A stretch of DNA of 64,000 nucleotides from Capitulum mitella (taxonomy: Eukaryota; Arthropoda; Thecostraca; Pollicipedomorpha; Pollicipedidae): the NCBI GenBank assembly GCA_030062745.1, contig CP099854.1:10628014-10692013 (forward strand), written 5' to 3'. The position numbers and the translations under genes are program-made. The notes below the pieces were generated by a model. That model ran no database searches, was not told the DNA's origin, and saw only the letters and a list, made by a program, of their open reading frames with translations. Below are positions 1,238-58,967 of the stretch, piece by piece (the stretch's first letter is position 1; every line of letters starts with the position of its first letter).

Positions 1238-1354
1238 CGACGATCACCCTCTGAATCCCTCCTCGGAGCTACCATCGGTCACAGAACCTACGAATGAAAT
1301 CTTTCCTGACTTTTCCTTTCCCGTTACATCATTGCCTGGGACAGTGGTGGTTGC

Positions 1355-1640
1355 ATCTTCCTGTCTTCACTGTTCTTCGGAAGGATGAGGGAGGGCTACC
1401 TCCTGCGGTCTTCAGTGTTTCCAGTGACGCGGTTTCTTCCTGTGATGGTCTTCACCTCTCCAGTGGCCTTCGCTGCTCCTGCAGTCTTCACTGTTCTCCA
1501 GCGGTGACCCCTTCCGGCTATTTCCATTGTTTTCCAGTGGCAGCTGCTTCCAACTGTCTTTGCCGCTCTCCAGTGTTGGCCCCCTACTGCGGTTTTCACT
1601 GTTCGTCAGCGGTGGCTGCCCTCCGCGGTCCTCATGGCGC
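1355..1640. repeat. Degenerate ~36-bp tandem repeat
   Basis: Recurring words GGTCTTCACTGTT and TCCAGTGGC/TCCAGCGGTG define about seven irregular units. Both strands are open over part of it, but the translations are only repeat products. No gene is called. Confidence 0.65.
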
Positions 1641-2567: not shown

Positions 2568-2573
2568 CATACA

Positions 2574-2624
<51 letters not shown>
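2568..2624. repeat. (AT)n(GT)n microsatellite
   Basis: An AT dinucleotide run followed by a GT run, imperfect at the start. Confidence 0.95.
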
Positions 2625-5068: not shown

Positions 5069-5070
5069 AA

Positions 5071-5148
<78 letters not shown>
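5069..5148. repeat. (CA)n(TA)n microsatellite
   Basis: About ten CA units followed by a long TA run. Confidence 0.95.
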
Positions 5149-5151
<3 letters not shown>

Positions 5152-9329: not shown

Positions 9330-9600
9330 GACCGAGCAGTGCCCACAGCGGCACAGCCAGGCGAATGGCGGTCCTACACAGCAGCCAGTACCAACACACA
9401 GCGTCGGATCGAACAGCGTCGGCAACGGCAAAGGTACAGCGAGCGAACAGCGGTCCGGCACAGCGGAATAGTTCAGCACATAGCGGAACGGCCCGAACAG
9501 CCTCCACAGCGGCACAGCGGGCAGTGGCGGCACAGCGGAGCAGTTCGAACAGCCTCCACAGCAGCACAGCAGGCAGTGATAACACAGCGGCGGACCGCAC
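9330..9600. repeat. Degenerate GC-rich CAGCGG-type repeat
   Basis: Words ACAGCGGAAC, CACAGCGG and GAACAGC recur every ~10-25 bp without a fixed period. Long ORFs exist on both strands here, as expected from such a repeat; none looks like a protein. It lies about 0.7 kb downstream of the ICE1 stop. Confidence 0.6.
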
Positions 9601-10298
9601 CTATCTAGCTCCAGTTGCTCCGCAACCTCACATCTGCCGGCGCCGTCATAACACCACACGCAGACCACAAGTCACAAGCATTTGAGCAGTAGCGTGCTGC
9701 AGACCCGGGGTCACGCAGTGACGGGCGTGGTGACCCGGTGTCACGTCACCAGGAGCGGCCGTCACGCAGCCCGAGACCCCATGACGCGAGATGACGTCAA
9801 CGCACGTCACGCGCGGGAACACGAACAACGTGGCGCGCCCACGCTCGTGGCGTACACGTGCCGATGAGTAAGGCTTCTGGCGGCAGCGCCTCCACAACAG
9901 ACGTACACAGACAGGCAACAGACTGCGATCCTATTACTGACACGAGTATGGCAAACGACGACAAAACCGGTGGGAGTCAATGACTCGAGCCCGTTCAAAA
10001 CAGGCGGACATCAACACAGTGATCACCATGTGGTGCAGCCTGAACGGCGGATCGCTTCCAGCGCTCCCCGTCTGAGTATCACAAGCGTGGCGTCATCGAC
10101 GACATCTGACGCCACCCGATGACGTCATTCCGGCGCCACTAGCTGACGCCACCCCGGCAGCCGCAGCAGCTCCAAGTCAGCTCCAGCCGAGCTTCGGTTC
10201 AATTTAGTTCAGCAGCTCGGAAGCGCGATCTTGGACCGCAGAGCGAGCCGCCGTCACCGGGTCGTACCTCACAGCTCGTCTCCTTCACAAATTATTCC

Positions 10299-10483
10299 TC
10301 ACGGTCGTACCACATAGCGGCCGCTGTCATGGCTCAGCTTTTCTGACCCGTTCACAGATGTCGCCCCCGTCGTCGGCGGCAGGGCTTCGATACAGCGCAA
10401 AAGGCGGCCGGCCGAGTCGGCCGGCACGCGGACGCGCAGGAGCTGCGCCGCCTTCTTCGCCGCCGTGCACACCAGCGCAGAAG
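10299..10483 (-). CDS. ICE1: ICE1 exon 15 (terminal, with stop)
   Basis: 185 nt, acceptor TGATTTCAG, phase 1 in, ending in TGA at 10,301-10,299. It encodes TSALVCTAAKKAAQLLRVRV then PADSAGRLLRCIEAL and a short tail. Human ICE1 ends EAWRREASNSVPSAIVSCLE then EVSAL, so the order and length to the C-terminus agree. The acceptor and exon start are repeated upstream in the degenerate minisatellite 10,484-10,940. Confidence 0.78.
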
Positions 10484-13400
10484 CTGAAATCACAGGTCAC
10501 ACAGAGGTCAAACGCTGGCAAAATAGTGCAGGAGCCGAAGATGAAGATCACACAGAGACCAAACAATGACACATCAGCCCAGGAACTCAGGATAACGGTC
10601 ACACAGAGGTCAAATACTGACACCAGTGTAAGAGCTGAGGATACAAGTCACAAAGAAGTCAAACAATGACGCACCAGCCCGAGAGCTGAGGGTACAGGTC
10701 ACAAAGAGGTCACACACTGGCACACCAGCACAGGAAATGAGGATACAGGTCACAAAGGTCACACAATGGCACACCAGCGCAGGAACTGAGGACAGAGGTC
10801 ACACAGAAGTCAAACACTAGCACACCAGCGCAGGAGCTGAGGATACAGGTCACACAGAGGTCAAACACTGACGCCCCGGAACAGGAGCTGAGGTCAGAGG
10901 TCACGCAGAGGTCAAGAACTGACACAGAGGTCTGGGCGGGCCTAAATACCTCAATTAATGGCTCAGAACATGAGCCGGCAAAACGGGCCAAAAAAAATAA
11001 CTCGGAAGATGAAGAACTGAGCAGCGGGGAAGCAGAAGAGTAATATGGACTCATCAGAGTCCGTACCAGCTTTGAAGCCAAGGTTATACTATTACTCGTC
11101 AGGTCTACTGTTAAGAAAGTCACACAGAAGATGAACACGGGATAAATCAGTAAGACGCTTTGTAGGGCGTATGACGACCGACGCCTACTTCTTTGTTGCT
11201 GCATAATGATTTTTCCTTTAGGCATTCTGAGTACAAAACGATATTAGTCCATCTATGCCAATACTTTGCATCAAGAGAATTACAAGTTAAAAAACCATGC
11301 GAGCCAATGATGTTGTTCGCGGCCACTACTGAGAAGTTCAAAACATCCGTGGAAAAACAGGTCTGAGAGCGAACATTATTCCCCGGATAGTTATCTGGAA
11401 CAAAGAGCTTGCAAGCTAACTCACTACAAACAACAGCACATGAAATTAAAGGATTAGGCTATCGTCTACTGCAAACGTCATGATCCACTATTTAGTGGTT
11501 GTGCGGCTACTAGCCGCCAAGAACTGTCAAGGCCGGGCCGGGCTGGGTCGTTCAGTTTGATTTTTTTCTGCCAGTTGAGCTATGACTCACTAAGCCTTCG
11601 CGCCTCGCTCCAAATAACCGACAATGCCACAAAGAGAGCAGCCATGGCCAGGACCTGACGCCACACAAACAGACACATACGCACGCATACGCACACACAA
11701 CACTCACGTCTTACGCACACACACACATACACATTCACACAACACTCGTCAGCCTCACGAACTGACGGAGGCAACAATGAGGCCATAAATTAACCAACAG
11801 CCAAATGGAACATTTACTGTTCAAAGTGGGAACAAGAACTTGTCACTAAAATGAGTAGGGACAAGGATGGATCCAATCACACACAAAGTTCATTTTCCAA
11901 GGCAGTGCTCTTCTACGACATGTCACTCCCCTACTTGCATTCTGCGACAACAAACTGAACAATAGTTATATGTCTCATGACAGGTCATAATCATCATGCA
12001 CAAGCCCGGCTGTCCGATGAAGCTTCGGTTTGCGCGACTTACCTTGTTTCTTGTGCAGAGCAACTCCTTCCAGTATACAGACGGCCTCCTCCACCATCCT
12101 GTCGCTCCTCTCCGGGTACAGGGCCGTCAATTCAGCTGACAACATCACAGCCACAGTCAGACAGAACTGTTACCCCTCTCCGGGTACAGGGTATCGACAG
12201 TTCAGCTGACGACATCAAAGTCACCGTTACACAGAACTGTTGGCCCTCTCCGGGTACACCGGGTACCGTCAGTTTAGTTGACAACACAGCCACCGTTACA
12301 CGGAACTGCCAGTCCTTTCCGGGTACACAGGGTACCATCAGTTCAGCTGACAACACAGTCATCGTTACACGGCGCAGGGCGCGTCTGCAGCTGACATAAC
12401 ACCACCAAGCTGGGCAAGATGCCGAGATAAAATGCGGAGACCGAGAATGGTTTAGAGAAGCGCCGGAGCACATTACAATCCATTTGAGTTCAGACCCACC
12501 ACAGCTGGGTACACGGGTCAACACTATGGCAAGACGTGGCTGAACATGAGAAACATGATTTTGTTCGAAAATTTTACGCATCCATGAAAACATAAAAGGT
12601 GCTTTTGTTCTACTCAAGCTAAATCGTCCCGATTTAGCTCATGGGGTACACGACGAACACAGCAAAACGGCGAATATGACACTGATTGCGAATGCAATCA
12701 GTTGGCCAGGAGAAGAACTGAGCTACGTTCCACTTTCCGTGTTAAAACGGGTCACCTGCAAAAGAACAGCTCTGCCGATAAAGACAGATATTTAACGGCA
12801 AGTTCAACCATTTCTTTCTACTTAACGCAACAAGTTTAGCCCCTCGTTCTCCAGCCGTTCTCCCTCGGGCCGACTGACCGGTGAGCGTGAGGCAGGCGGC
12901 GGCCGCCTGGTCGGGCTCCCGGCCGCAGCGCCAGTCGTCCAGCAGCGGCACCACAGCCCGCTCCAGCGGCTGGTCATTGGTCCAGACCGGACCGCACAGC
13001 GCCGAGAGCAGCAGCAGCGCGGCCCGCAGCTGCGCCCGCTCCTCCTCTGGCGGCCAGCCTGGCAAACACAGAGTGGCTCTGTCACCGAGAGATGGCGACA
13101 CCGCGCCACCGCACGCCATGGGTGTCAGAAGCGAGCCAACGCCGGAACAAGATGGCGGACAAGACACGAGGTGCACTGGGGAAAAAGGCGTTTTTCCATG
13201 AACGCTTGCAATGGTAAAACTGCTCGGTATGGACGCCAGAAAAAATCGAAAGAGCAGGTGTAAACAAAACCACTCGCTGCAATACCGAACAAAAGCAGAC
13301 AACACAAGGAAAAGTGGAGCGATGAAAAAGGCCACCACGGGGCCACAAGACAGGGAAGCCAGGAGAAAAAACGGGGTGCATAGCGGCATCGAGCCAATCC

Positions 13401-16400
13401 GTTCCGAGCGCTGCAGTGCCCGGCACAGCGTACACAGTCGTCACAGCGCCCCTTACAGCTCAGCTCAGAGCGATCCCTGCAGCCGGCCGCAGCGCTCACA
13501 GCACTCATTTCGCAGAGGCGCCGCCCGCCGGCACCAGTCAGCTCACATCCAGAGCTCACGCTCACACGTCAGCTCACCGGCCAGCCGCCTGACGAGGCCG
13601 AGCGCCAGCTGGTCTGGACTCTCCTCGGGTTTGTACTGCCGATATCTCCGCCTCAGTTCCGGCGCCAGGGCGGCCAGCGTGTCGTCCGGCCCAGTACCGG
13701 CCGCCGTCAGCACGTGCTGCAGCAGCACCTCCTCCACTGGGGAGAGGGCTACACCTGTCGGACACAGCGGCACCGTCAGCACGTGCTGCAGCAGCACCTC
13801 CTCCACTGGGGAGAGGGCTACACCTGTCGAACACAGCAGCACCGTCAGCACGTGCCGCAGCAGCACCTCCTCCACTGGGGAGAGGGCTACACCTGCCGGA
13901 CACAGCGGCACCGTCAGCACGTGTTGCAGCAGCACCTACTCCATCGGGAAGAGGGCTACACCTGCCGGACACAGCGGCACCGTCAGCACGTGCTGCAGCA
14001 GCACCTCCTCCACTGGGGAGAGGGCTACACCTGCCGGACACAGCGGCACCGTCAGCACGTGCTGCAGCAGCACCTCCTCCACTGGGGAGAGGGCTACACC
14101 TGCCGGACACAGCAGCACCGTCAGAGCACCGCTCACAGGGTGAACCGTCACTGGCGGCCCCGCCGGGCGATGGAAGGCAGGCGGTGACGGCGGGGCCAGT
14201 CAGCGGAAGATCGGCTCAGGAGGGGGGGGGGGGGGTCAAGGCAGGGCCGGCGGCCGGCAGTCAGGGAACAGGAAAGCGCCGAGAGCTTCAGACGGACGGC
14301 AACGTCTCAAGACAGCCGCTACTGATATTTTGGCACATATGGTGTCGGTATTTCCTCATTCCCAGTCCGTACCTCCTATATATTTCGTACGCATTACCTA
14401 ACTCTCCCACATTACTGACGGCCCATCGAAAGGTGAGACCTGTGTTGCCTACAGTCGTAAATCAGGGCACAAATGCCCACATTTTCTCACCTTCCTGTCA
14501 GAAATGGCTCTTCACATCGTCAAAAATCATTTCCTTTTCCGCGCCATCATATGTCGTCTTCGCCACCCTCAGTTCAGACGGAAGACCACCACACATCCCT
14601 TACAGAACAACCATTGTTTACTATCAGACCGGCCACCGGCGGTTCCGCAGGCTAACATCCGGGCGGTCCGGCAGCTATAATCCCCGCGCGGCGGCCAACT
14701 GAACGGCCTGTGAGCCGGCCGGCCGGCCGCCGATACCTTGTCTGACGTTGAACGCCTTGCTCCAGGTGTGAATGACGGCGAGCAGGGCGCGCGGCGCCTC
14801 TAGCGGCCACAGTACGGCCGCGTCCAGCAGCAGGGCGCGCGCGGCGCCGGCGGCCCCGCGCAGCCGACAGAGCGCTGTGTGCAGCCGGACCAGCTGCACA
14901 CGGCACGGCGGCTGAAACACACGCAGCGGCTCAAACACACAGCGCTGTGTACAGCCGGACCAGCTGCAGACGGCACGGAGCCTGACAGCGGCTAAAACGC
15001 ACACAAACAATGACGGAACAGAGGCAGCACAGGACTGGAACACAGGTACAGCAGGGATGTGAGACACAAAAATAACAGGAAGGCTGAAACACAGACAAGG
15101 CGGGAGGGGGGGGGGGGTGTTATACGAACACAGCAGCGCCAACAGGGCTGACACAAAGACACAGCAGAGGATGAAAAACAAACACAGCAGGCAATGAAGC
15201 ACAAACACAGCACGGAAACTGAAACATAAAGATAGCAGGGATGAAACATATCCAGCAGGGGATGAATCACAAACGGTCAGGGCTGAAACAATGATACAGC
15301 CCGACTAAAACACAGACAATGCAGGGAGCTTGAACACATACAGCATGGGTCTGAAACAACGTACGGCTGAAACCGACGGCAGGGCTACAACAAAAGCACA
15401 GTGGGGCTGAAACGTAGGCACGGCGCTGTGTTCAGGTTGACGGCAGCTCAGCGAACAACGCTGACGCTGGCCCAATAGCGCACTGTATCGGCCCGGCGAG
15501 AGACTCACACGCGGAAAACGTCCACAGACGCAGCGAATCCTACCGCACGACCATACCCCATCAAACTGCAGTAACTTATCGTACCAAGAGCACACTCATC
15601 AGCAGCAGACCAGCACGACATGTCACCGGGCTGACGCAATTCACCACATGGAGATGCCGGGACACTACCATCTGACAAGGCTTGTGCCTGATCGTAAATA
15701 GTTTCTGAATCGATTCAGTAATTTCAAACTTTCGTCGTGAATCAAAAATAGAATCGATTCACCTGAAAGTGCAATGCATCAGAATCGGATTCGAATCGCA
15801 GACTTGCCATCCAATCATCACTAAACCAGAGCTAAATCAGAACACCTCTTTTAAAGTCGCCATGAATCAGAACCAGAATCGACCACCACCTCCGTGCCTT
15901 GGGCGGTGAATTGATTCCGCTGAGGCGAGTCACGCACACGCCTGAGCCGGACCGGACCTCACCACCCCGCAGCTGAATGCCGCAGGCGGCCCCATCAATC
16001 CCCGGCGGCCACTGACCGGCAGCGACGGCCTCCTGTTCAGCAGGTGTCGGCGGGCAAGACGGGCCAGCAGCAGGGGCGTCCGGGGCCGGCCGCGCCGCTG
16101 CAGCTGGTGGACGAGCAGACAGGGCCGTAGCAGGTCCGTCTCCGGCACCAGTTCCCAGGCCGTCAGGCACGGCACCGGGCGCACGCACACCTGGTGCACC
16201 ACGTGGCTGCCGGCACCACACAGCATACCGTCAGCGCCGCGGACAACCTCACCTGTCACGGCCACACGCGACGCAGCGTTCTCAGAGTCGGGGCGAGGGA
16301 GGGGCACAAAACACATTTAAGTCGATTCCTTCCATCCTACGCTACGTGGCTTATGTCCATTTGCCCAAATTACGGAAAGGAGGGCGAGTAGTTGCCCCGG

Positions 16401-19400
16401 CAGCCCCCCCCCCCCAGTTTCGCCGTCTCCTGGTCAGCGACGCTTTAGGGCGGAGCTGGTTCTCGTCATTCCGAAGTTGACGGGACATCGGGACTGCTGC
16501 GCCCTAACAGAGACACACGCCTTTTCTGTGGCGGGGTCACGCAGCACCTCTGCGCTTACAGTACTAGTGGTGACTGTCTCAGACCAGCGGCGCTGACCTC
16601 GGCCACCAGCGGAGAGCATCAACACGCAGAGAGTGACATCGAAACCAAGAAGGCCAGGAGACAATGAAACAAGTGCGACAGCACACAGCAGTGCAGCTTG
16701 GTGTGCAAAAGCTGTTACGCGGCACTTCAGGCACGCTTACGGGAAACAGTCGAGGACGTCTGACTGCACAACATCGCAAGAGGAGAAAGGAAACGGTGAT
16801 GGCGACACAGTTCATCGCGCTGCCTCAACAGCGCCCAAAGTCCGACATCTGGACTAGATTTGTGTAACGTCGGCGAAAGGCTTCACAGAGGCGGACCGCG
16901 CCGAGATATAAGGAGACAAAGAAAGATAAACGTCTCCGACCCTCCGGCATAGCCAAGATGACAACACGACATACGTGGCACACCACCAACGGTATTGCTA
17001 ATGCGCAATTAAAAAGGCATGAGCCTGCATAAAGTCAGTCGCCTGCATGTTTCGCTGCCAAAGCACCTCTCCTCATTCGCACCTTACATCCTTATCAGAT
17101 CACGCGAGATTTGGCGCCGACGTCGACCACTGAAAACGACTGCAGCTTTCCCAGGAAGCCCAGTCGACATATATTTGAAACTGGCGCACGTTTCAGTGAA
17201 GGCTGGCCCAACACACGTTAAGAAACTCGTTTGACCAGGTCGACTCGGGGGCGGGGGGGTACATCATCGTCAAAACAAGACCACGACTCCGCATCTATAT
17301 CGCCAAACCTTTCTTCAGCACCGACGCCACATAAACAGTCAAGGAGGAATAAAATGGGCAGAACGGAATAAGTCCCTCTCACATAAACAAAACGGAACAG
17401 ATCTCCCTCACCTAAGCCTCCCCCTCACCTGCAGATAGCCTCGTCCGTTGCTGGGCAGGACACCAGGATGGTCATCAGGCGGCACCAGGGCGCAGAGTCC
17501 GGCTCGGCGTCCAGCAGGTGCTTCAACAGGTCCGCCAACATAGCGTCGCACTGCTCTTTCCCGGTCACGGGCCCTGAGGGGGCGACGGGGTACAACAACG
17601 TCAAAAAACAAGATCACGACTCCACGTCTATATCTCCAGACTTTCCTGACCAGACCAAAGACACACGGAGTCAAGGAGGCCTAAAAAGTTCATGGCAAAT
17701 GTCAATCCATCATCCAGAAACATCATGGAATAGACGGACACATTAAGAGGTCTGCTCTATATCTCCCAACACCGAGTAATCCGCAAGCGGACACGCGCCC
17801 CGCACAACACTACGGTTCAACAAACCCCTTGAAAGGCCTCTTCACAAACCTCTTTAACAGCCACATGAATGAGGACTACCATTATAGCTCAAGTCAACGC
17901 TGCCCTGAAAGATGAAAACCTTCACAGCACGCGTAAAACAAGAAGGAGCGCAAAATTAAAAGCCAGGTTACTACTGAAGCGGAACATCCTACCATCCGTG
18001 AGGACGGAAACAGACAGAGAGGAGAGGAACAGAACAGAAAACGGAGGCAAGAAGACTGAGAGGGGTGGAAAGATGTGCGGGGATGAGATAAGGAGAGGGA
18101 CAAGAGGACAGTCATTAACCGACAGTTAGGGAGCGTGAGTGGACGGGAGAGAAACACGCACGCACGCACGCACATCACGGGGCGGGGCGCACATAATGAA
18201 CCGAAGGCCGGTCGATCGGTCAACACGTGAACCATCCACCGACAAATGGCAGCTACTGTGAAAACATCGGATCCCAGGCGGACCTTCGACCGTGTGTGAC
18301 CACAGCCCGGACTACTCACAGCCGGCTCCTATGATGGGCACAGCCGCAACGCCCGGCACAGCTCCGCCGGCGGCGGCAGGGCCGGTGGCAGGGGCGGATG
18401 CAGGGGCGGCGGCAGGCGGGGCCGCCGGGGGACCGCCTGCCGCTCCGACCGGCGGGCAGGCGCCGGCCGCCTGCGCCTGCGCCGCCTCAGCCTCGGCCGC
18501 TCGGCGGGGCGTCATGGGCGCAAACCGGCCGCCTCCTGATCGCCGGCGGCGCCGCCTCCAGCACCCGGTAGAAGCTGGGCAGCGGCGGCGGCGCGGCGGC
18601 GGCCGGCGGCCGGCGCGGCCGCTGCCGGTGCTGCTGGTGCTGGTCTGCCGCCGGAGGATGCTGGTGCTGGTGCTGGTCTGCCGCCGGAGGGTTCTCGGGC
18701 CGCGGGGACGCCATGTGAGCCAGCCGTGCCCGCTTCACCGGCGGCCGCCAGTAGGGCGCGACGTCCGCCTGCGGCGCCGACGGCGGCGGCGGCGGCGGCA
18801 TCTGCGGAGAGCCGGATCTGAGCCGGTGGCGCCGCGGTGGCGCCGCCGGCGGCCGCCGGGCCGACACGCGCACGGGCCCGGCGGCCGGCGCCGGCGGCGC
18901 GGCGCTGCGCGGCGCGTCGGCCTGTGGCGCGCGTGGCGCGGCTGGCGGCGGCGGCGGCGGCGGCGGTGGCGGCCAGCTCGGACCGTCGCCGCTGGAGCGG
19001 AGCCGCGACTCGTGCGGTCGGGTGATCCAGGTGCCCAGCGGCTGGACGTCGTCCGGTGGCCGCCGGCCAGAGCGGTAATCGGTCCGTTCGGCCGGCGCCG
19101 GCACAGACAGAGACCTCCGCGCCGGAGCCGCGGCCGGCGGCCGGGCAGGGGCTGCGCCCGCAGTAGGAGCTGAAGGTGCAGTTCGAGCTGGAGCTGGAGC
19201 TGAAGGTGGGGCTGAAGGTGGGGCTGAAGCTGGAGCTGAGGCTGACATAGGAGCTGGAGCGACAGCTGCAGGTCGAGCCGGGGCTGAAGTCGAAGCAGCA
19301 GCCCGGGCAGGAGCCGGAGCAGAAGCCGGAGCTGTGCGCGGCGCCGGCGGCCTCCGGTCTGCCCGCAGCCTCGCCAGCAGTCGGGAGCCGCGGCCCAGCG

Positions 19401-22400
19401 GCTTCTTCCGTGGAGGCGCCTCCGGCCGGCCGGGGGGCCGCGGCCGCCTCGCCGCGGCCGCCTCCAGCCGAGAACCAGCCGCCGCCAGCTCGGCCGCCCG
19501 GCCCGACGCCGGCCCTGCTGGAGCCGCTGTTGGAGCCGATGAGGCACACGACGTCTCCTCTACGGCGACGCCGGCTCGACTGTCTGAAGCGGCTGCTGGA
19601 TCCAATGATAGAGACGACGGTTCCTCTAGCGTGACGTCAGCCGGGCCGTTTGAAACGGCTCCTGTATCCGGTGTGACAGATAGCGCTTCCTCTGGGGTGA
19701 CGTCGGCTGGACTGTCTGGTGCTTCAGGCGGGGTAGTGGCACGAGCAGATCGTCCGGTTCGTCTGTTCGGAGCGTGTGAATCCCTCCTCTTCGCCATGAC
19801 CTTCCGCTTCGCTGCTCTGCTCGTTACCTCCTCAAGACCCAACGAAGCATGACCATTCGACGAATCGGACCGTTTCCGTTTTCCCACTGCCGCCGTCGCG
19901 TCGTCGGACGTCTCCGAGCACGACCTCTCCGTCTCGGGGTCCTCAGCGCGGCCGTGCCGGGGCAGAGCTGCTCCGTCAGCGTCCGCCTGCCCGGCCGTCT
20001 CCGGCGGCACATGCAGAGGCTCGCCCGCCTCCCGACCGGCCGGCGGCTCCTCCGGACCCGCCTTGATTCGCGGCGCCGGCGCGGGACCGGCCGGCTCCTG
20101 CTCCTGTCCCTGCTCCTGGGAGCCCGGCCGAGTCAGGAGACGGCCGGCGACCGCTCTGGAGCGCGTCACCCTGGCCGGCCGCAAGAGCGCCGATAAGGCG
20201 TCCACCGGCAGGTGCGTCGCGGGAGCCGCTGCTGGAGGCTGGACCGGGCCGGGATATTGGACCGCAGACGGATGTGTCGCGGGAGCCGCTGCCGGAGACT
20301 GGACCGGGCCGGGATATTGGACCGCAGACGGATGTGTCGCGGGAGCCGCTGCCGGAGACTGGACCGGGCCGGGATATTGGACCGCAGACGGATGCGTGGC
20401 GGGGGCCGCTGCCGGAGGCTGGACCGGGTCGGGATATTGGACCGCAGACGGATGTGTCGCGGGAGCCGCTGCCGGAGACTGGAACGGGCTGTCAACTCGG
20501 TCCGCAGGCGTCTCCGATACCGGAGCCGCGTCCGGTGCCGAACCTTCAGCGGCAGCCACGCCCGGGGTCGGCCGCCCTGGCGTACGCTCCGCCCGGGAGT
20601 CGACCTTACCACAGCCGCCGCCGGCCGACGGCTGCTCAGTCGGAGGCGACGCCGGACGCTGAAGGCCGACCGCGGCACGTCGCAGAGACGAGCGTGTCCT
20701 GAGCATCACTGTCCGAGACTGTACACCTCCCACGACTTCGACGTCTTCTGGCTCGACCTTGACACGCACGGCCGAGTCGGAGCAGGCGGGCACCGGTCTG
20801 TCGTTTACCGCAGAAGGTAGCGTCCCAGGTGCCACTGTCGGAGACTGGACGCCGCCGGTCGCCCTGGCGACAGACCGAGTCCGCCTGACTGGCCGCAGCA
20901 GCGCGGCCACGGCGCTGACCGGCAGGTGCGTGCCGGGCGCCGCCGTCGGAGACTGGACGCCGCTGGCGGCTTCCCCCGCGCGCGACGCAGCCCGGCGGGC
21001 CGGCGACCGCGACAGGGCCCGACGGCGAGCTGTAGCTGCAGCCCGCCGATCTGACGGCGGCGCTGTCCGAGACTGCACCTCTCCATGAGCTGCAGCCCGC
21101 GGCAGAGGTGTCCCAGACGTCTCCGCTGGTGACCGAGCGTCTCCGCCGGGTTCACTCGAGCCCTGGTCTCCGTCGGTCGGTCCAGTCTCTGGCGGCAGAG
21201 CGGTGGCGCCGGCCGGCGGCGCCGCCAGCAGGGCCTCCAGGCGGCGTTGGTAGGCGCGCGCCGCCGCCGCCGGCTGGTGCGCTGACAGCGCCGCCGCCGA
21301 GAAGCCGAGGAACCCGGGAGACGCCGCCGTCGGCTGGCCGCCGCTGCCGGCGTCAGATGACGTCCTCCTGACGTCAGACTGACGCTGCTCGGTGTCGGAT
21401 CGGCTCTTCGTGACGCAGACGGTGACGGGCTCGGCATCCTTTTCATTGTCACTGGAAGAGCCGCTCGCTGCGGTGACTTCTACTTCATCGGCTTCTTCTT
21501 CCAAATCGGCATCGGCGCCGACATCCGGCGAGCCTTCTCCGTCCTCGGCTGGCTCCGTCGCGCCGCTCCTCAGTTCTGCGGCGCCGCCGTGGCCGGTGGG
21601 TCGGCCACCCCTGGCTAGCGTGGCCGCGGGTCGGTGAGCCCTGCTGGCCGGTGCTCCGGCCGAGTCGAGAGTCCGCCCGGGCTCCACCAGAGGTGGACCG
21701 GGCCGAGACTCCGAGTCGGGCGTCTGACTCGAGTCAGCGGCGGCGCCGAGTCGCCGAGTCGTCCGCCGCGCGGCGGTGAGTCGGGATCGGCGGGGAGCGG
21801 GCAGGGCACCCTCTTCTTCAGACGACTCCCTCTGCGGCGGCACCGGAACCGGGCCAGTTTCGTCCACCCTATTCCCAGACGGCTTTAGACTGTAGTCCTC
21901 AGGTTCCTCAGCAGCACAGATCTGAGCAGGCAGCTCCTTTTCACCTCTTTCCGCGCGGTTCACGGCAAGGGCAAGACAAACTTCAGCTTCAAGAAGACTG
22001 TCCTGAAGAGGGGTCTCCGCCGCGAGCTTGTTTCGCCGCGTGGCCAGATCGGCCGCGCAGCGCTCTCTCTTGTTTCCACCGGGCGCGGCCACCATGGGAC
22101 TGTCAGAGACGCCCGTCCCCGCCTGACTGTCAGCAGAGCCTCCCCGCGACGACACCGCAGCCGGCTGAGGCGCCTCTGCCGGCGGCGGCTGGGCGGCAGC
22201 TCTCCCTCCGGCGGCGACGACCGACTCCGTGTCGAGCCCGCGGCTGCCGCCGGCCGGCCGCCAGCTGCTGGACGCCGTCCGGTCGGCGCGGGGCTGCTCG
22301 GCCGGAGACGACGCGCCGACGGCGGCGGCCGGCCGGCAGGTGGCGCTCTGAGAATCGTGTCCAGCGCGTGCCGCCGCCGGCTGGCCTCCTCCCGACACCT

Positions 22401-25400
22401 CTTCAACGTCGCCCAACGGCTCTTGGACGTCTCTCGCCCCCTCCTGAGCTGCCGACGCCTGGTCAGGCTCGGTCGACTCCGCCTCTGAGGCCGGGGCCGG
22501 TCCGAGGGGCGGTGGGCAGAGCGGCGCTGGCTCCTGGTTCAGACGCCCCAGCGGCGCAGACGAACCCGTTCCGGCCTTCACTGCAGACGCAGCGCTGGGT
22601 CCACCGCCGCCGCCGCCCTGCCGCGGCCCACCGCTCCACCCGGCCACAGCGTTCACCTCCTGCCCACCTCCGCCGGCGGCGTCCAGGCGGCGCCACCGTC
22701 GCTCCAGCTCGCGGCGGTGGTGGCGCCACCAGGCGGGCGGCAGCAGCGGCGCGCGCGGCTCCCCCTCGGCCAGGTTATTGGCCGAAGCGCCGGCCAGCCG
22801 CAGCGTGTCGGCCAGGCGGGCGGCGCGCCGCAGGCCGGCGCCCGGCAGCAGGCGCAGTACGCGGCGGCGGCGGCGCGCAGGGGCCGGACCAGAGGCCTTC
22901 ATCAGCCGCCGCCGCGACCAGTCGAACCGGCAGCCGGCCGCCGGACGCGCCGCAGGCCGGCCACGGAGAGCTGGCCACCGCTGCTGCTGCTGGCGACGGC
23001 CGGACGTTGATGACTGATGGAGCTGGTAACGGCGAGGTGTTGACGGACGGTGCTGCTGGCAACGGCGAATTGGTGACGGGTGGTGCTGTAGGCGACTGAG
23101 GGGCGACGACAGCTAAAGCTGGTGAAGACGTATCAGGCTGTCTCGATGGACACTGTGAGGAAGTGGTGGCAGAAACGACTTCTGACAAAGATGTGGTGGA
23201 CGCAGCTGACGAAGTGGTGAGGGGTGCACCTGGTGATGAAATGGTGACTGCTGAGGACATGAAGGTGGTCGGTAGTGTTGGTGGCTTTGGGCTGGTGGCG
23301 GCGGGCAAACCCAGTGCTCCTGAGCTGGAAGCGGACGTGGACGATGACTGCCAAACAGTGCGCGGGCTCACCACAGCCCAAGACGACGGCGACTGACACA
23401 TGACGTCATCGCTTCTCAGGTCCGCAGCCGAGGCGTCTGCCGTGCTCCCGTGTCCGCCAGGTACTTCCTCGGCCACTGTGGCGTTTCCATTCGCCTCTCG
23501 GCGCACGCCTGCAGACGCCGCCGGGGATCGCCCAGTCGCCTGACGCGTTCAACAGCGGAGCGGCAAGAGCCATCTGTGGGCCACCGGCCGAAGCACTAGT
23601 TCCGCAGCCGGCCGGCTGGTGATGCGACGCTCGGATGGAGGCCACACGGGGCGCCGCGCCCGGCGCCGCAGCAGCCGGCGGTGCGAACGTCAGCTCCAGA
23701 TCGAGCACGATCTCCGCTGGCAGCGCCGCTGCCGGCGGCGGCGGCGGCGGCGGCGGAGAGCAGGTGGCGCCACCGTCGCCAGACCTCCTGGCAGACCTCG
23801 GTCGGGGCTTGGTCCTTCTGCGCGCGCCTCCCGCAACAGCCGACCGCGACAGCCGACCACGCTTGGCGCCGCTCTGCACCGCCCCGGCGGACGGGCCCGA
23901 CACTTGAGCTTCGACCCGCCGCCCAGAGATGGCAGCCCCGTCTGCGGCCGGTCCCCGATCGTCAGGACTCCGTCGCGACCGATTGTTTTTCCAGAGATGC
24001 GGCCGCCGACCAGCCAGCGCGCCGTCCGCGGCGGCCCGCCGACTGCGGCCGCGGCGAAGCGGGTCAGAGCCGGCCGCCTCCTGCCACGCGGCCCGCTCTG
24101 CGACCTCGCCGTCCACGCCGCTCCGGGCCTGGGTCCGCGTTTCCTCCTCCCCGACGGCGACCTCGCTCTCGGTCGCCGTGTCGTCCTCTCGTGAGCCATC
24201 ACAAGTTGGACCTGACGCGCTGATCGGCGCAGCTGAGCAGCTACCAGCCAGGGGAAGTATCTCGTTCACCGAGCTTCTGCTCGCATCATTTGCGGTGGTG
24301 TCGTTCTCGGACTTTGCACTGCCGCCCTCCGCTTCCAGGCGTTTCCCGTGTTCTACAGCTTCTTCGCAGGCACTTATCACAGCCGCCACCGGTTCTAGTT
24401 CTGAGCAGGTTTGCCCCTCTGGAAGGCCCGTCCCGCGGGCCCCTACCAGGACTGAACTGTCCTCTGATGCTTCCTCCACAGTCGGTCTCGTCTCTGCGGC
24501 TCGCTCAGAGGCTCCAGCCGCTCCTGCCAGTGGCGGCAACACTTCATGGCTCTTTCTCAGCGCTGGTTCCTCCTTACTATGTCCGATCTGCGGACTAGGA
24601 ACGCCCGTAGGCGGCGAGACGCTCCTCGGAGTTTCCACCATCACTGGAGCTCTCCCCGGGGTCTTCGCGAGCTCAGCGGCCCGGCCCGGGGTACCAGTGA
24701 GCTGCCGGACACTCTCCTGGGTTTCTGTCCATAGTGGAACCCCTTCTGGGGTTTCAGTCGGTGAAGGTGCCTTCTCTGAAGTCTCTGCCAGCGTTGGGAC
24801 ATTTTCCGTGGTTTCAGTCGCCGGCGGTACCCTCTCCGAGGTCTCGTTCAGAGATGGCACCCTCTCTGAGGTCTCAGTCGGTGCAGGCACCCTCTCTGGG
24901 GCCTCGGTCGGCGGTGGGACCCTCTCCGAAGTCACAGTTAGTGGTACGATTTCCTTCGAGGTCTCAGTCTGCCGTGGAACCCTCCCTGGGGTGTCCGTCA
25001 CCGGCGGGACCTTCTCTGGAGTGTCCCTCGGTGGTGACGCGCTCCTGCGGGGCCTCCGCCAGCGGGCTGGTGACCCAGGCCGGAGGGGTGGTCTTCTCCG
25101 TCAGACCGTCAGACAGCTCGAATCCGGCCGAGTCCAGGTGCAGCAGCAGCCGCCGGGGGCCGGCCGACCCGCCGTCACCTTCGACCAGTTGATCCATCCC
25201 CGCCCTGGAGCAACGCCACAGCGCCGGCCGCCGCCACCTCCGGCCGCTGAACAGCCCCAGCACCGGCCGGCAGCCGCTTCCGGCCGCTGGGCAGCCCCAG
25301 CGCCGGCCTCGGCAGGCCTCCGGCGGCCGCTCCGTCCCGCTCTCGGCGTCGTCCCTGTCCCCGCCGTCCTCCGAAACCTGGTCCTGCCCGGCGACGCCCT

Positions 25401-28400: not shown

Positions 28401-28466
28401 CGTCCAGCCGGGTGACTCGACATCACAACACACGCGACAAGCAGCCATTACTGAGGCAAATGAACA

Positions 28467-28516
<50 letters not shown>

Positions 28517-34500: not shown

Positions 34501-37500
34501 CGGGGCCACGACCTCGCCCCGGGAGCCACCGTCCACGGCAGCGGCCACGGCGGGGCCAGCAAGCACCGTTCCCAGTCCCGCTGGTAGGACGGACCAGGTC
34601 AGGGACGCCACCTCTGACCAGGAGACGGACAAGGCGGCCACGTCAGGGGACAGAGTCCGCGGGATCGGGGCAGGGGACGACCAGGCGGCGGCGCCGGGGG
34701 GAAAGCACGGACGAGAGCAGGGAGGAGAAGTAACACCGCCTGCCGGCAGAGAAGCGACAGCCGGCGCTGAGCACGCGCGACTCCCGCCGACCTTTACTGG
34801 CGACAGCAGCGCTCAGCAGCCGCCCCCGCCCGCTGCGTCAGCGGTCACCGTCAGCCGCCGCCAACCGCTCGGAGGCCACACCGACGGAGGAGACGGCGAG
34901 CTTTTCAGCCGCAAACGAGTCTGCAGAAGTCAAGCCCGACCGCGCCAGCCCAACGGCTGACGAGGCCGCCAGCGTCAACGGCACGGAAACGGCGCCGGTC
35001 CTGGCGGCGGCCAACGTCACCGAGATGATGTCCGTCTTGGCGTCAGTGTCCGTCGACGCCGCGAACGTCTCTGATGCCACGTCAACGGAGGCGGAGGAGG
35101 ACAGCGTCAGAGGCCAAACTGACGTCAATGCGACTCAGCCCGGTCTTACGGAGTTCGCCGCCATAAACGGAAGCAATGGAAACGACACGACCTCATCTAA
35201 TGATCCACATCCTGAGGGAACTTCGCTTACGGGTAACATGTCACAGAAACACTTACTCCCCGGCCAAGACCCGGAGACGACCACTTCATGGAACAATGCG
35301 TCGAAGACGTCCTTATCCGTCGACCGCGACCGCGGAAAGATCCTTTTAAATGAAACCACATCGCAGACATCCGATGTGCACCCGGCGAGGAACCCTCTTA
35401 ACGACAGCACGTCTGAGACGAACAGCACGACGGCCGACAGCGTCCTGACAGCTCCCACCAAGTCCAGCATCCCCCCAAGCGCCCCAGCCACCGCAGCACG
35501 CCAACACCTCTACCTCAACCTCCGCCCTCCTCACGCCCCAGCTCCACCCCGGCGACCACCGCCGCCGGGCCGGCGGCCCCAGCCACCGAGCCGGTCCAGG
35601 CCGAGCCGCGGCCGGCGGCCGTGCTGGCGGTCCGGCCGGCGTGCCTGCGCCGGTGCCGGGCCGCGCTGGCCGGCCTCCGGCTGACCGTGCGGCCGCCGCG
35701 GCAGCTGGTGGCCGCCGGCGCCGCCGTCCGGCTGCAGTGCCGGCTCCGCTCGCGGCCCGGCCTGCTGGTCGACCTCGGCTGGACGTTCGCCGGCGCTGGG
35801 GGGCGGCGCCGGCCGTGTGCGCTCAGTCCCGGACGGCCGGGGACCGGCGCCGAGCGCTGCCGCGGCTTCGGCGACACGGCGCAGATCTACTACGTCAACC
35901 AGACCGTCACAGAGTCACGGTGAGTCTCGCTCACCGTCGGCCGCCACCGAGTCGCGGCGAGTCGGCCGGACTGTCACGGAGTCAGGGTGAGTCAACAGAA
36001 GTCAGTCAGTCTCAGATAGAGTAGCCCAGTGTTCAGAAGGACTTCACACTTAAGTCAGGAGACAGCCGTTCGAGGCTCCACAATTAAGTCACAAGACAGT
36101 CGTTCGACGTAATAGCGACTAATCGCCTCCATACCAGACATGTGCCGGGATCTCGATGGAATGCAGGTTATCGTTTTGCGTCGGATTCTAAAGCCGACCA
36201 GGGTAAGTGTTGCGTCACCTGGGGCACCGCTTTGCTCCGGAGAGACACGACCTTTCCGAGATGACGCAATGACCCGCCCAGGTCGACGAGAGGTTGCATA
36301 CAACACGGGATAGCCTGTATTCCATTGTGACCCAGGCATACGTCTGTTCTATACGAAGCGACCAGTACGTCAATACAGCTCCCGCTTCGAAAATGCCTGC
36401 GTAAGGATCCCAGGACTGCGAGCTGGCAAAATCCATCACAGCAATTTCATCAGTTCCGGCCAGCGCCGAACGGACAGCATATCATGCGACAGCTCCGCTT
36501 AAAATAGCCCCGCCCTGGCCTGCTGAATGTCCATCGGCGACAGGTGGCCTGCACTTAATCACAGCACTGCAGACAGCTCTTTTCTACGAACGCCCCACTG
36601 ACTAGGCTGTTAAAGCCGACGTCACTAACCCCTCAGTGTCGCTCTTCGTCACCCGAACAGAGCAGTGTCGCGCGCAGCGCTGACGGTCCACAACTCCGGG
36701 CCGGGGTTCCAGTTTTGCCAGGTAACTTGGCACCGCTGGGTTCACTGTTTCGCACCACGGAGCTGAGATGCTGTCGAAATCCAGCATCGTCACTTGCCGT
36801 TCGAAAAACTGACGGCACGATTTCGTTTCCTGCCACTAATCATATCACATCGTATAATACCACACCATCCACACATCAGCCCCATTCATTCAATCGTTCA
36901 ATCGCCCGCAGGCCTGAATAATTAACCCCGATGCCGATGATTCTGAGTCGGCCGAAACTGACCGTGTCCTCGGCCGACTGCCGCAGGCTGGAGATTCCGC
37001 GGACGACGGCCGAGCTGAGCGGCCGGTACACCTGCACGGCGCGGGCCCGCTGCTGCCCGGGGGCCGACGCCGGCGGCGGCCGCGGAGGCGGCGTCGCGGT
37101 CGTCCGGCAGCTCTCCACCACGATCCAGGTGTACGGCCGGCGGCCGGGCGGCGGCCGCTGGACGCTGGCGGCCGCCGCCGCCGGCTGTCTGCTGGCCGGC
37201 CTGCTGGCCGCCGTCGCCGTCCGCCGCTGCCGCCGGCCGAAGGGCGGGCGGGGCGCGGCCGGCGCGGCGGCGGCGGCGGCGGCGCGGCCGGCCGCCGGCT
37301 GCCGGTACCAGCCGGTGACCGTGCTGCGGCTCCAGCAGACGGCTATCGGCCGACCCGACGTCGAGCGTCCGCCCGACGAACACGAGGAGGAAGAAGAGGA
37401 GCAGGAGCAGGAGCAGGAGCAGGAGGAACAGCGTCGGCTGACGGCGCCCATCGACGGCGCACCGTTCGCCGGCCTGCCGGAGACGACGATCGCGCGCACG

Positions 37501-40500
37501 CACGCGCCGCGGCCGGCCCACATCCTCACCAACCCGCTGTCGTCGCCGCAGTTCGAGATCCCGCTGACTCCGCCGGACACGCTGCCGTCGCCGCCGCGGC
37601 CGGCCGCCGCCGCCGGCGCGCGCTGGCGGCTCGGCGCCGCCGCCCGGCAGTAACGTCACCGCTGCGCCTGGCGACGTCACGCCGTGACGGCCGGGGCGGT
37701 ATCGGCCGAGCGAGGAGGCCGCTGAAACTCGCGGCGACGCGGAAGATGGCCCTGGACAGACTCTGTGGACACGACACCTGGCCGGTCCACACTGTCCACG
37801 CCTGGCTTGAACCATCGGCCAGCAAGTGGGCACGGTCTGGCCTGAACCATCCGCGGCGCACCCGGCCGGCGGCGGCGCAGGCAGCCGCCGCCGCAGCCTG
37901 CAGAGAGCGGCCCGGACACGGCCTGGACGTCAGTCGTGTGGCGGCGCCGGCCGCCGAGGCCCCGGAGCTCCCGACCCGCCACCGTCCGGGACGACCTGGG
38001 CTGCCGTCAATCGCGGCGATCGTGGCGGGAAACAGAGCGCAGCGGCGAGCCACGGCGCAGACGCGTCCGGCAGCGGCACGTGACGCGGCGCCACGTGCCG
38101 CCTGACAGGGTCGCGGGACGCACGACGGCGCGTGTTACGGACGCCCGACTCTTGACGTGAGACACGTGATCTGCTTCTGGTGTCCAAACTCTCCACCCCT
38201 CAGCCTCTGGTTCAAGATATCCGTCTGCTTTCGAATTGCACCGGCTGGGCGAGGTACGTTCGCTCCAATTGTCGCCCGTTTTCCACCCCGTTCTTATATT
38301 GGAGGCCGATACTTTAAGCCCGTATGAATTTCGTGATACTGCATCCATTCCATCTCGGTCTAGCTTGACGAATGCAGCTTAAACCATGCATGCTACACAG
38401 TGCGTGGAATTTTTCCACATATGACGACAGATTCAAGTTTCTCGCACGCGACCAAGCCATAGACGACCGCGACATCGCTTCTGGCTCTTTCTCATCCCTG
38501 TTACCATCTCACGTACGATCTCACTACCCGCCGCCAGTGCTGCCACCTGTTATGAGCTTTTGCTATCCACCGCCACGGCCGGTGCTGCCACCTCTTGCCA
38601 ATTTTCCGAACCAGCTTCGGTCGGGGCGCTGCGCCGCCTGGCCGCTGAGGCCGCGTTCCGTACTCAGGACACCGTGTCCGCCGTAGCTAGGGGGCGGAAA
38701 CGCCCGCCAGGCGCCGCTAAATCTCAGCCTGCCCAGCGTGGCTGCGATCTCTCGGCGCGCCACAGTTCGTCATGACTGCGCGACGATCGGCGCGGTTCTC
38801 GTTTTGCGTGAGGAACGTTGCTCGTCGGTCCTATCCGACCGGGCACGAGCCCGCCGTGTCTTGCCTCTGAGGCAGCCGAGACGGTCCGAACTCCCAAATA
38901 CACGGCTGGAGAACCGAGACTATGTTTACCGGCGCAGAAGGGGCAGGAGCACCAAACGAAACAACGTATTCCGCACCGTCAAACGACAGCAACGTCCATC
39001 ATCTCGTAATCTAGTACGTCCAAGTACTTACAGAACGACTATACCAGATGGCTTAAGAACATGACACAGCCACTGCATCATGTTCGTTGGCAAGACTTTC
39101 CAATCCACCGGCTTATGTCGCAAATCAAAACTCGTAACATCAAAGCCGTCAAAATTTACGCACGGCAAATCACAGAAGTTAGCCAACTCCCCGTTTATAT
39201 CCACGGGTCTAAAACGCGTCGAACAACATGCAAACAAGTCCACATAACTTCGGCGCGTCCGCATACGAAATACACCGGCACATCATCCCCGGGCATGTTC
39301 AGAGCCCCGTTCATAAACTGACCCGGAGAGCGCCAGACGACGTTCATAAACTAATCTACGGAGTCACCCAAATCATCTCGACGGGCACACAAAGTTACTT
39401 CGCAGTTACACTGCCAGGCCCCGAAGTAAGTCTCTTGTTGGACGGACTTGATGAGAATGTTCTAATGAAGTTTGTTCACACTGAAGTTTGCTCTTGAGAA
39501 GATTGTTTACCGTTTCTGTAAACAATCGATCATGGCCTTGCAATCAGCACGCCAATTTCCATGCATCATGCTTCCAGTGGAGTATGCGATATATGTTCGC
39601 AGCGAAACGATCGACGTTCAAATGCCGTCCGAAACCTACGCGGCTAACATTTCTCTTCGGTTCAAGCGTCGGGATCTCTCGAAAGAGGCTCGCAAACAGG
39701 GCTCGTGTGTGTGTGTGGGGGGGGGGGGGTGGTTAGCGTGGCGGCAGGATGCCGTGAGCAGCTCGCCCGCTATCACCCAGCCCACCATCAAAACACCGGC
39801 CAGCGCCTAAACCGAATGGCGGGCCGCTGCCACCAACCCGTGACCTTCGTGACCCCCGCAACAACACGTGACGACCAGGTCAGCAGGTCAGGGGGCGGAC
39901 ACGAGACGGTCCCCCTTCCCCTGGCCTTCAAGGTGACCATGTGCAAGGGGAGGCGATGCAGCACTACCCGACCCCTTCGTGTATCTAAAGCTATTTCGCA
40001 AACGCAAAACGCGCGGACCAAACCAATTTCATTTCCAACGTGCAGCACATAAAGATACGTGACAAACGAGGTCCTATTGCATACCAGTCACTCCTGCTAC
40101 ATCAGCGGAACACGTTTGTGATGATCAAACACGGCCGACCTCGTCCAGCGTGATGACTGGATCAGTCTGAAGTACGCGGATCTATGTTATACTGGCCAGT
40201 GGTAAAAATGCTGTTTTAAAGGGCTGCAGGCCATGTCAGCGACATCAAAACTGACTGGCGGAACATTAACCTAGACCACATGTCTACAACAGTGATTTCT
40301 TCGTAGTCACGGTGACGAGTCACATCACGGCCAGCTCATTAAAGTAATAACATTTATATGAAACTTCAGTTCCCCTTCCCCGAAAACGCAGTTAAGGTAG
40401 TAAAAACCAACAGGCAACTAACTTATGGGTCAGAGCTTCTCTAAATAGCAACTGTATCGTCAAGGCAAACGAAACGATAGAAAATGGCGCAGCGTAGGAC

Positions 40501-46500: not shown

Positions 46501-49500
46501 CAAGCCTCCACCAATCTATGGCAGATGGCAGCCGAGCGGGGCACCGGGGTCCCAGAACACACTCACCATGGCGGCCTCGGCTCCCTCTTTTTGGTCCCGC
46601 ATCTCCACCATCTGCGCCGACATCGCCGACAGCTGCGCCGTCTTGGTCTCCACCTCCTGTCGACAATAACGGCTCAGGACTGCCCATCGTCGCAGCGGCC
46701 ACCAACAGCAAACTCAGTTAACAAGAACTGTCGATAGATGGCGATACGCGCACTCCGACTTCGGAAGCCGCAGGTGTTATGACGATGAGCCAAACGGGGA
46801 AGTAGGGGAGGGGAGGGGGGCACTGACGACAGATCAATGGGGTAAAGAGGCATGGTTCAGTCGTGTTCACAAGACCCCCGGCAGAGATGATCCATTCAGC
46901 TCCGTCACTACAGCCTGCGGTCAACGTCATAACATAGCCAGACAGAGCAAACCCTCCAAAGGCGATAACCAGGAGAAAGAGCTGCAGACCGGCCAGACAG
47001 ATCGCGACACGACACACGCCTAGTCCACTACGTTCAGGACAAAATCAACTTCACTGGCGAAACCGAGCGCACGATGCCTACGACTTATGATCCACCCGCT
47101 GAACTCAACTACGCTGAACTACGCAACGAACCGCGAAAACACGAAACATGCAGGGCGGCTTTCACTGCCCCAACAAACACTGCCAATCCTGAGACACGTC
47201 TGATACCCCGCGGCCCAGACTCTGCGCACGCCTAGCGCTCCGAGCAGTGCAGACCCCCGAGGCCGGCGAGACCACAGCTCACATACAGGCCGGCCATTAA
47301 TCAGTCCGAGGTCCTCCCCAATATCGACCAGTTCAGCACACCGGAGGGTGTTGGGCGCCGCCTCAGTCCCAGCCAGTTTAGCTCACCTCTCTGAGGGTAT
47401 CGAACACCGCCTCAGTCCCGGCCAGTTTAGCTCACCTCTCTGAGGGTATCGAACACCGCTTCAGTTCCAGCCAGTTTAGCTCACCTCTCTGAGGGTATCG
47501 AGCCCGCTTCAGTCCCGGCCAGTTTAGCTCACCTCTCTGAGGGTATCGAACACCGCTTCAGTCCCGGCCAGTTTAGCTCACCTCTCTGAGGGCATCGAAC
47601 ACCGCCTCAGTCCCAGCCAGTTTAGCTCACCTCTCTGAGGGTATCGGGCCCCGCCTCAGTCCCGGCCAGTTTAGCTCACCTCTCTGAGGGTATCGAACAC
47701 CGCTTCAGTTCCAGCCAGTTTAGCTCACCTCTCTGAGGGTATCGAACACCGCTTCAGTTCCAGCCAGTTTAGCTCACCTCTCTGAGGGTATCGAACACCG
47801 CTTCAGTCCCGGCCAGTTTAGCTCACCTCTCTGAGGGTATCGAACACCGCTTCAGTTCCAGCCAGTTTAGCTCACCTCTCTGAGGGTATCGGGCCCCGCC
47901 TCAGTCCCGGCCAGTTTAGCTCACCTCTCTGAGGGTATCGGGCGCCGCCTCAGTCCCAGCCAGTTTAGCTCACCTCTCTGAGGGTATCGAACACCGCTTC
48001 AGTCCCAGCCAGTTTAGCTCACCTCTCTGAGGGTATCGAACACCGCTTCAGTCCCAGCCAGTTTAGCTCACCTCTCTGAGGGTATCGAGCCCCGCCTCAG
48101 TCCCGGCCAGTTTAGCTCACCTCTCTGAGGGTATCGAGCCCCGCCTCAGTCCCGGCCAGTTTAGCTCACCTCTCTGAGGGTATCGGGCCTGCCTCAGTCC
48201 AGCCAGTTTAGCTCACCTCTCTGAGGGTATCGAGCCTCGCCTCAGTCCCGGCCAGTTTAGCTCACTTCCCTGAACGTGGTGAACCCCTCCTCAGTCCCGG
48301 CCAGGTAAGCTCACTTTCCTGAGTGTGTTGAACCCCTCCTCAGTCCCAACCGGTTTAGCTCACTAAACATGTTGAGCATCACCTCAATCCTGGCCAGTTT
48401 AACTCATTCCCCTGAGCGTGTTCAACATTACCTCAATCCCAGCCAATTAAGCTCTTCTCCCTGCGTGTGCTGAGCCCCAACTCAGGTCCTGCAAGTTTAG
48501 CTCACCTGAGCGTGTTAAGCCCCTCCTCAGTCTCGGCCAGCTTAGCTCATCTGAGCGTGCCGAGCACCATCTCAGTCCCGGTCAGTTCAGCTCACCTCTC
48601 TGAGCGTGCTGAGCTCGCCCAGCTGCCGGCCGAGCTCGGTCTCGTGGCGGCTGCAGTCGCGGTGCAGCTGCGCCACCTGCCGGGCCGACGACTCCAGCTG
48701 TCGGGTCTGCTCCTGGTGCCGCGCCGACAGCTGATTGTAGCGCGCGATCAGCTGACTGCCGGACGCAGGGGGAGACGTGGTCAGAGGGGCTCCGGACGTG
48801 CGAGGACGGCAGGCGACGCGGCCACCTCGTCAACGAATGTACGGAAAAGGGCGTCAACGGACGTTCACTGGCACAACGACAAGACGCCCAGCAGATCAGC
48901 GAAGATACAGAAGGAAAGTGCAGTCAGCTGATTACGTCCGCACGAAGAAAACACGGCAGAAGGACATCGGAACGGAGAAAGAGCCGCCAGCCGACTGAAC
49001 AGGGCTGGAGGAAAACGCAGTCAGATGACTCCTGACTGTAAAATGGATTTGCCCTCATACAACAGTGCTGCTGAGATCGGATACAGCAAACACCCAACAG
49101 CCAGTTTTCAGCGTAAATGAAATCAGTTGGCTGTGTCGCACTACGATAGAGTGTGTCACATTAAGTCGTGTTATGTCGCACACAAAAAACGTTCATTATT
49201 TCCGTCGCAAACTTGCAAAAACAAAACATATGGCCCACAGGGAACGGTCCGTCATCGACAGACGCAGGGTGACGGATAGGGCGTGGTGTCTGAGCCGGCT
49301 ACAACAGTGCGGTGAGGCACAGCGCTTTGACGAACAACGCTGGATGCCAGCGTGCACCAAAACGCAAACGAGTGACAGTTGCCAAAGTCAGGGCCCGCGA
49401 GAACGAATCCTGCGGCCGGTACCAGCGGTACCACTCACTCAGTCTTGATGATTTTCTGCTTGATCAGCTCCAGCACGCGCAGTTGTCTCCTGAGCTCCGC

Positions 49501-54210: not shown

Positions 54211-54249
54211 TATATACGGCCAAGGTCGGGGGTGGTCAAATCATAACCA

Positions 54250-58960: not shown

Positions 58961-58967
58961 TCATGAA

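Follow-up and report, generated by a model that had tools for sequence, protein, structure and literature searches.

Introduction

Mirages, as described in amphioxus, are arrays resembling minisatellites in which an intron-exon boundary is copied in tandem, and donors as well as acceptors are affected (PMC3087553). The genes named in the available text of the two reports concerned are Adh3, the globins BflGb6 and BflGb9, TnC and PGBD5 (PMC3087553, PMC3902484); PGBD5 was added and TnC cited by PMC3902484, and the Adh3 case is that of Canestro 2002, as related in PMC3087553. According to the same portions of these sources, many, not all, of the copies carry AG or GT, and the core of the array is homogenised with the borders left out. 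Reverse transcription PCR in amphioxus, as summarised in the available part of PMC3087553, suggests that splicing is undisturbed. Here we describe four minisatellites with units spanning an exon-intron boundary in a single gene of the barnacle Capitulum mitella. The gene lies on the minus strand at 10299–54103 of a 64,000-nucleotide stretch (assembly GCA_030062745.1, contig CP099854.1, positions 10,628,014–10,692,013 of the forward strand), hereafter the window, to which all coordinates without a contig prefix refer. At the level of sequence, the arrays have the features of a mirage. They are probably minisatellites in which the initial tandem duplication took in an exon-intron edge by chance, and no mechanism directed at splice sites is needed.

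Among the matches listed in the open-licence literature, searched by title and abstract, no report of an arthropod mirage was found, which is weak evidence of absence. The available parts of PMC11331182 and PMC3152781 held nothing on boundary-spanning repeats.

Results

Arrays spanning exon edges of one gene

Of the 26 splice junctions placed in the gene, four were spanned by a tandem array covering 8 bp or more on each side, all on the minus strand. At the acceptor of the last exon, which starts at 10483 with the intron side at the higher coordinates, the array occupies 10468–10926 and has a unit of approximately 51 bp (also reported at 100 and 151 bp by Tandem Repeats Finder, TRF). The arrays at the acceptors of exon 13 (exon start 12135) and exon 11 (exon start 13754) occupy 12107–12370, with a TRF unit of approximately 69 bp, and 13704–14124, with a TRF unit of 69 bp, six copies and 94% matches. 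The fourth and longest array, at 47358–48612, spans the donor of exon 3 (exon end 48596), and TRF gave a unit of 49 bp for most of it. Including the genuine copy, the junction was found nine times at the last exon, five times at exon 13, six times at exon 11 and 25 times at exon 3. As in the available accounts of amphioxus mirages, the units run across the exon-intron boundary, and 5' and 3' exon boundaries are both affected, here as one donor and three acceptors. In an initial annotation of the window, four arrays had been proposed to cross exon edges of the gene and to be seeded from those edges, and both proposals were borne out. The exon 11 array was also confirmed, with the edge nearest to unique exon sequence at 13755/13754 rather than the 13771 first given.

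Each of the four arrays has one end inside the exon. Growth was wholly on the intron side, with the exon penetrated by approximately one unit or less, and the units reproduce the exon edge at that site together with intron sequence. When the exon 3 and exon 11 array regions were searched against the genome (477,042,490 bases, 16 contigs), the sole match of each of these two regions was itself.

The splice dinucleotide was intact in 22 of 25 copies at exon 3, 6 of 6 at exon 11, 4 of 5 at exon 13 and 7 of 9 at the last exon. An intact GT or AG, initially ascribed to every unit, was thus kept in 39 of the 45 copies, resembling the partial retention described in the amphioxus sources. The exon 3 array also shared with them a homogeneous core, located distally, and diverged borders: its exon-side copies had diverged (judged by eye with no tree, and for exon 3 only), and GT had been lost in three of the four scored copies closest to the real donor. 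At exon 3, one or more diverged copies fell below the score threshold used for copy conservation. At exon 11, reading into the exon was open from three of the six copies, namely the genuine one and two upstream, and the other three hit a stop.

These data also bear on the suggestion that selection maintains redundant splice sites. Retention of GT or AG in most copies, the genuine ones included, would fit such selection, as would the divisibility by 3 of three of the gene's four units (69, 69 and 51). Selection for spare sites would be expected to keep GT or AG better than the neighbouring positions. Across the four arrays, however, the adjacent column pairs that were at least as conserved as the splice pair numbered 21 of 41, 32 of 43, 24 of 43 and 20 of 43, and the losses at exon 3 lie nearest to the real donor. 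Multiples of 3 made up only four of the eight units available (49, 69, 69 and 51 here; 44, 45, 26 and 55 in the genes described below), too few to indicate a preference. Copy conservation therefore gave no support to selection for redundancy, which we regard as highly improbable.

The same structure in other genes

Arrays and splice junctions were intersected in a sample from the same genome comprising 261 junctions (130 acceptors and 131 donors) in 73 merged stretches totalling 272,447 bases. The junctions were anchored on 158 Pfam matches, adjoining same-frame matches being merged in two cases. Each was assigned to the best candidate GT or AG close to the edge of the hidden Markov model (HMM) match, so that individual positions may be inaccurate by a few bases. 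The sample was non-random: PF00069 and PF00063 contributed 30 loci each and PF00171 13, and one kinase, seven dynein and three CCT places were hand-picked as exon-dense.

Arrays spanned five of the 261 junctions at a period of at least 10 and a score of at least 50, and four at a period of at least 20 and a score of at least 100. Four cases were clear, again one donor and three acceptors: a CCT-family acceptor (C5:25675778, 55 bp x 7.4), an ALDH-family acceptor (C14:6335422, 26 bp x 39.8), a myosin donor (C2:10684332, 45 bp x 7.9) and a kinase acceptor (C5:30653251, 44 bp x 2.2). These arrays extended approximately 10–34 bases into the exon. Since their ends lay inside HMM-matched coding sequence, the copying most likely ran from the exon into the array and intron. 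The fifth junction (C10:6465652, 18 bp x 2.1) was spanned by a weak, mostly exonic repeat.

Copy numbers of tandem arrays are often misstated in assemblies, and an assembly artefact might be considered on that ground. The copies differ from one another, however, and the structure recurs at unrelated loci, leaving such an origin with very little probability.

A further reading is that the arrays mark a past gain of introns, in which an exon piece containing AGGT was duplicated in tandem (the Rogers model). The motif AG|GT occurs at several of the junctions, including the exon 3 and exon 11 junctions of this gene and those in the ALDH, myosin and kinase genes, and in the available part of PMC3087553 mirages are proposed as sources of introns. 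An intron of the Rogers type is bounded by two copies of one exon segment. In the exon 11 intron, the only one considered in this respect, the array fills 13755–14124, at the acceptor end of an intron that reaches 14736, and no copy is present at the donor end. The cases of potato RdRp, ATP2A1 and fission yeast (PMC4974935, in the part available) resemble the present one in that a tandem duplication involves splice signals, but here there was no evidence of a new intron and the arrays stand at one intron end. With the exon 11 intron as the test case, intron gain is a very unlikely origin.

As a separate observation, several myosin heavy chain genes of the genome (L044–L050, L053 and L056, on C14, C15 and C16) contained a repeated exon for Myosin_head positions ~377–440, as in mutually exclusive exons. 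Repeated alternative exons are typical of arthropod muscle myosin.

Comparison with chance placement

The initial annotation had stated that the arrays centre on splice sites beyond chance and had proposed an intersection of tandem repeats with junctions against random placement. When arrays were compared with noncoding points drawn at random from the sampled stretches (coverage null), 14.8 of the 261 sampled junctions were expected to be spanned at a score of at least 50 and 11.6 at a score of at least 100, and five and four were seen. An array that entered an exon by more than approximately one unit would be eliminated, and the verdict was therefore based on a seed null, which counts a junction only where a single unit overlaps it, and on its GC-matched form. 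The seed null expected 2.1 (score of at least 50; P 0.06) or 1.8 (score of at least 100; P 0.11). Arrays were GC-richer than other noncoding blocks (0.63 against 0.54), as were junction windows relative to noncoding windows (0.62 against 0.55), and GC matching raised the expectation to 3.0 against the five seen (score of at least 50; P 0.18). There was thus no clear excess in the sample, and the proposed centring of arrays on splice sites was not supported.

Nor did array coverage in the sample (score of at least 50) rise towards exons. It was 6.7–7.8% at 40–220 bp into the intron and 3.7%–10.9% deeper, and it dropped at the exon edges, with 2.8% for the 20 bp of intron next to the exon and 1.5% for the last 20 bases of the exon.

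Within the gene itself, random placement of its arrays covered 3.5–3.9 of the 26 junctions, so the four observed are unremarkable in this respect. In a similarity scan, five of the 26 junction windows had a nearby copy at a score of at least 25, compared with 18.3% of 1000 random intron windows (4.8 expected); at a score of at least 30, five of 26 compared with 15.3%. In the sample, the scan (score of at least 25) returned 11 of 261 junctions and, for comparison, 81 of 1500 noncoding points taken at random; seven of the 11 junctions lay in myosin genes with whole-exon copies and are not mirages. Three donor edges of the gene were 1–2 bases off in the span counts, nulls and similarity scan; the array junctions were unaffected.

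Evidence on possible initiation at exon edges

An alternative to chance inclusion is that tandem duplication starts preferentially at exon-intron boundaries, for instance through R-loops, a paused polymerase or RNA-templated repair. Several results weigh on this side and against our own explanation. Before GC matching, the sample exceeded the seed null by 2.2–2.4x (P 0.06–0.11). The gene itself holds four such arrays where the seed null expected 0.35–0.39 (nominal P 0.0005–0.0007, post hoc and not GC-matched), and its four of 26 junctions are a high share beside the 5 of 261 in the sample (Fisher P 0.005, also post hoc). The gene was chosen because of its arrays, however, and its array coverage is about three times that of the sample.

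Further evidence came from a genome-wide count of the donor word CAGGTGAGT and of the control CAGHTGAGT, which is one base off, in which pairs 20–50 bases apart were recorded. The donor word occurred 3851 times with 188 pairs, and the word read backwards 2374 times with 13 pairs. The control occurred 10859 times with 184 pairs, more than 30 of them from one array, and backwards 5781 times with 56 pairs. Counted by loci, there were 33 per 2288 for the donor word and 31 per 6452 for the control (ratio 3.0, P 2e-5), and 19 loci against 8 had at least two pairs. These locus counts drew on the 100 pairs listed of the 188 for the donor word and on 60 of the 100 listed (of 184) for the control. They cover C1 to C9:5.15 Mb, or 59% of the genome, with word totals scaled to that part rather than counted in it. 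The exact word was found at three of the 131 sampled donors. The word test thus favours targeting of junctions, as initially proposed, but it is confounded by gene location: donors lie in genes, where arrays may be denser, and the control words do not have to.

An R-loop origin was examined through strand composition, as initiation at R-loops would be expected to leave extra sense-strand G skew in the arrays. Three of the gene's four junction arrays had a sense GC skew of 0.11–0.24, compared with 0.07 in its other intron blocks. In the sample, mean sense G skew was 0.026 for 40 arrays and 0.043 for 607 other noncoding blocks (P 0.45), which gives no support to that origin.

With coverage that does not rise towards the exon, a GC-matched expectation of 3.0 against five and no added skew in the sample, initiation at boundaries is an unlikely explanation. 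Genome-wide, there was no clear attraction of arrays to splice sites; the sample and the word test taken together possibly leave an excess of up to about two- to three-fold, and perhaps none.

Structure of the gene

The gene was placed from open frames, phase and splice signals as 14 exons and 13 introns. Fourteen introns and an exon 15 had initially been claimed; no exon 14 was found, and the final exon is here termed the last exon. Exon 1 ends at 54022, and its start was not placed, the ATG at 54103 being out of frame. Exons 2–4 lie at 49506–49439, 48755–48596 and 46656–46567, exons 5 and 6 at 45852–45765 and 29871–29764, and the compound exon 7 at 27836–18320. Exons 8–10 follow at 17573–17429, 16252–16017 and 14911–14737, exons 11–13 at 13754–13578, 13058–12879 and 12135–12043, and the last exon at 10483–10299 (all on the minus strand).

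With corrected edges, exons 1–6 and the start of exon 7 formed a single open frame when joined, as did exons 9 to 13 and the last exon, with a stop at the end. None of the three frames was open across the exon 8 to exon 9 junction (16017–17573), where an exon or splice site was probably missed. Exon 7 switches frame several times, with long overlapping open frames of differing phase at 23406–25100, 24964–26535, 26258–27496 and 18487–23112, a pattern that suggests unseen small introns or assembly indels. Given these frame changes and the closed passage from exon 8 to exon 9, the gene may have further exons. Exon 7 also contains four arrays at a score of at least 100, three with units that are multiples of 3 (60, 60 and 39) and one reported at 40.

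The split gene itself was thus confirmed. Its name, ICE1, comes from the initial annotation only, since homolog, Pfam and PDB searches provided no support for it. No protein homolog was found at E ≤ 0.01 among 7993 scored candidates for query residues 1190–1560 of 1658, a portion of the C-terminal half. Sequence from exon 1 was in the wrong frame in this query, outside the scored region, and also in one protein searched against Pfam. Pfam returned no family for two C-terminal pieces and only matches below the cut-off for an N-terminal piece, and PDB no match for a C-terminal piece.

Other repeats and features of the window

The acceptor of exon 10 was also reported to be duplicated, at a distance of 70 bp. 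Alignment and the similarity scan recovered this as a single direct duplication at 14867–14997 (minus strand), with copies at 14997–14937 and 14935–14867, 55 of 61 aligned bases identical and an offset of 62–70 bp. The direct repeats reported around exon 8 (17247–17734, minus strand) were likewise recovered by alignment at 17734–17578 and 17401–17247 (119 of 144 aligned bases identical; none of 1000 block shuffles as good). They are intronic and end 4 bases from the exon, and the splice junction is not copied.

Eight of the gene's 12 non-coding arrays at a score of at least 100 lie away from junctions. Examples are two intronic TRF arrays within 28214–28973 (minus strand), with units of 54 and 52 bp and no contact with any exon found. 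Array coverage in the gene was 12.0–14.6% compared with 3.8–5.2% in the sample, approximately three-fold higher. At a score of at least 100 and a period of at least 20, all 16 arrays of the window belonged to the gene, the 20 kb of flanking sequence (1–10298 and 54104–64000) having none; at a score of at least 50, 35 of 38 lay within the gene.

Within an intron of the gene, the region 33500–38150 is GC-rich with long open frames on the plus strand and is possibly a nested gene; two of the frames, 36918–38102 and 34734–35681, had no Pfam match. Outside the gene, two adjacent plus-strand open frames at 60971–62201 resemble a pogo-type transposon, as judged from a match of one to the DDE_1 endonuclease family (E 4.8e-10) and a weak HTH_psq match of the other, below the cut-off.

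Discussion

The arrays of this gene are best compared with ordinary minisatellites in introns of the same genome and with the amphioxus mirages. Unit length and GC richness are shared with the former, in whose units (the eight arrays of the gene away from junctions) no exon edge was found, unlike in the junction arrays. Relative to the amphioxus mirages, as far as the available text of those reports goes, the differences are a barnacle host, the presence of several in one gene and a rate per junction obtained by sampling.

Under the explanation favoured here, in which an exon-intron edge was included by chance in the founding duplication, the arrays would be products of the usual origin and turnover of minisatellites in a genome prone to repeats, with replication slippage or repair creating tandem duplications within its GC-rich introns. 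Those containing a junction would be tolerated while the outermost real junction and the exon remain intact, and would survive because that outermost edge is untouched. Slippage and unequal exchange may later amplify and homogenise the inner copies, and exon-side copies would drift, some losing GT or AG. Splicing would ignore the extra copies, as the amphioxus RT-PCR suggests for that system (PMC3087553, in the part available).

The finding extends mirages from amphioxus to a barnacle, with a rough rate of 5 in 261 sampled junctions. A genome rich in boundary-spanning minisatellites would make it possible to ask directly how the splicing machinery selects the correct site from a series of almost identical copies, and whether introns are gained from such arrays. 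A stronger form of the result, which we hold as unlikely, is that exon edges of this genome seed tandem duplication about two to three times as often as comparable sequence, with a mirage at approximately 1.5–2% of junctions and hence an ample natural reserve of duplicated splice sites. If this were true, those duplicated splice sites could supply splice variants or new introns.

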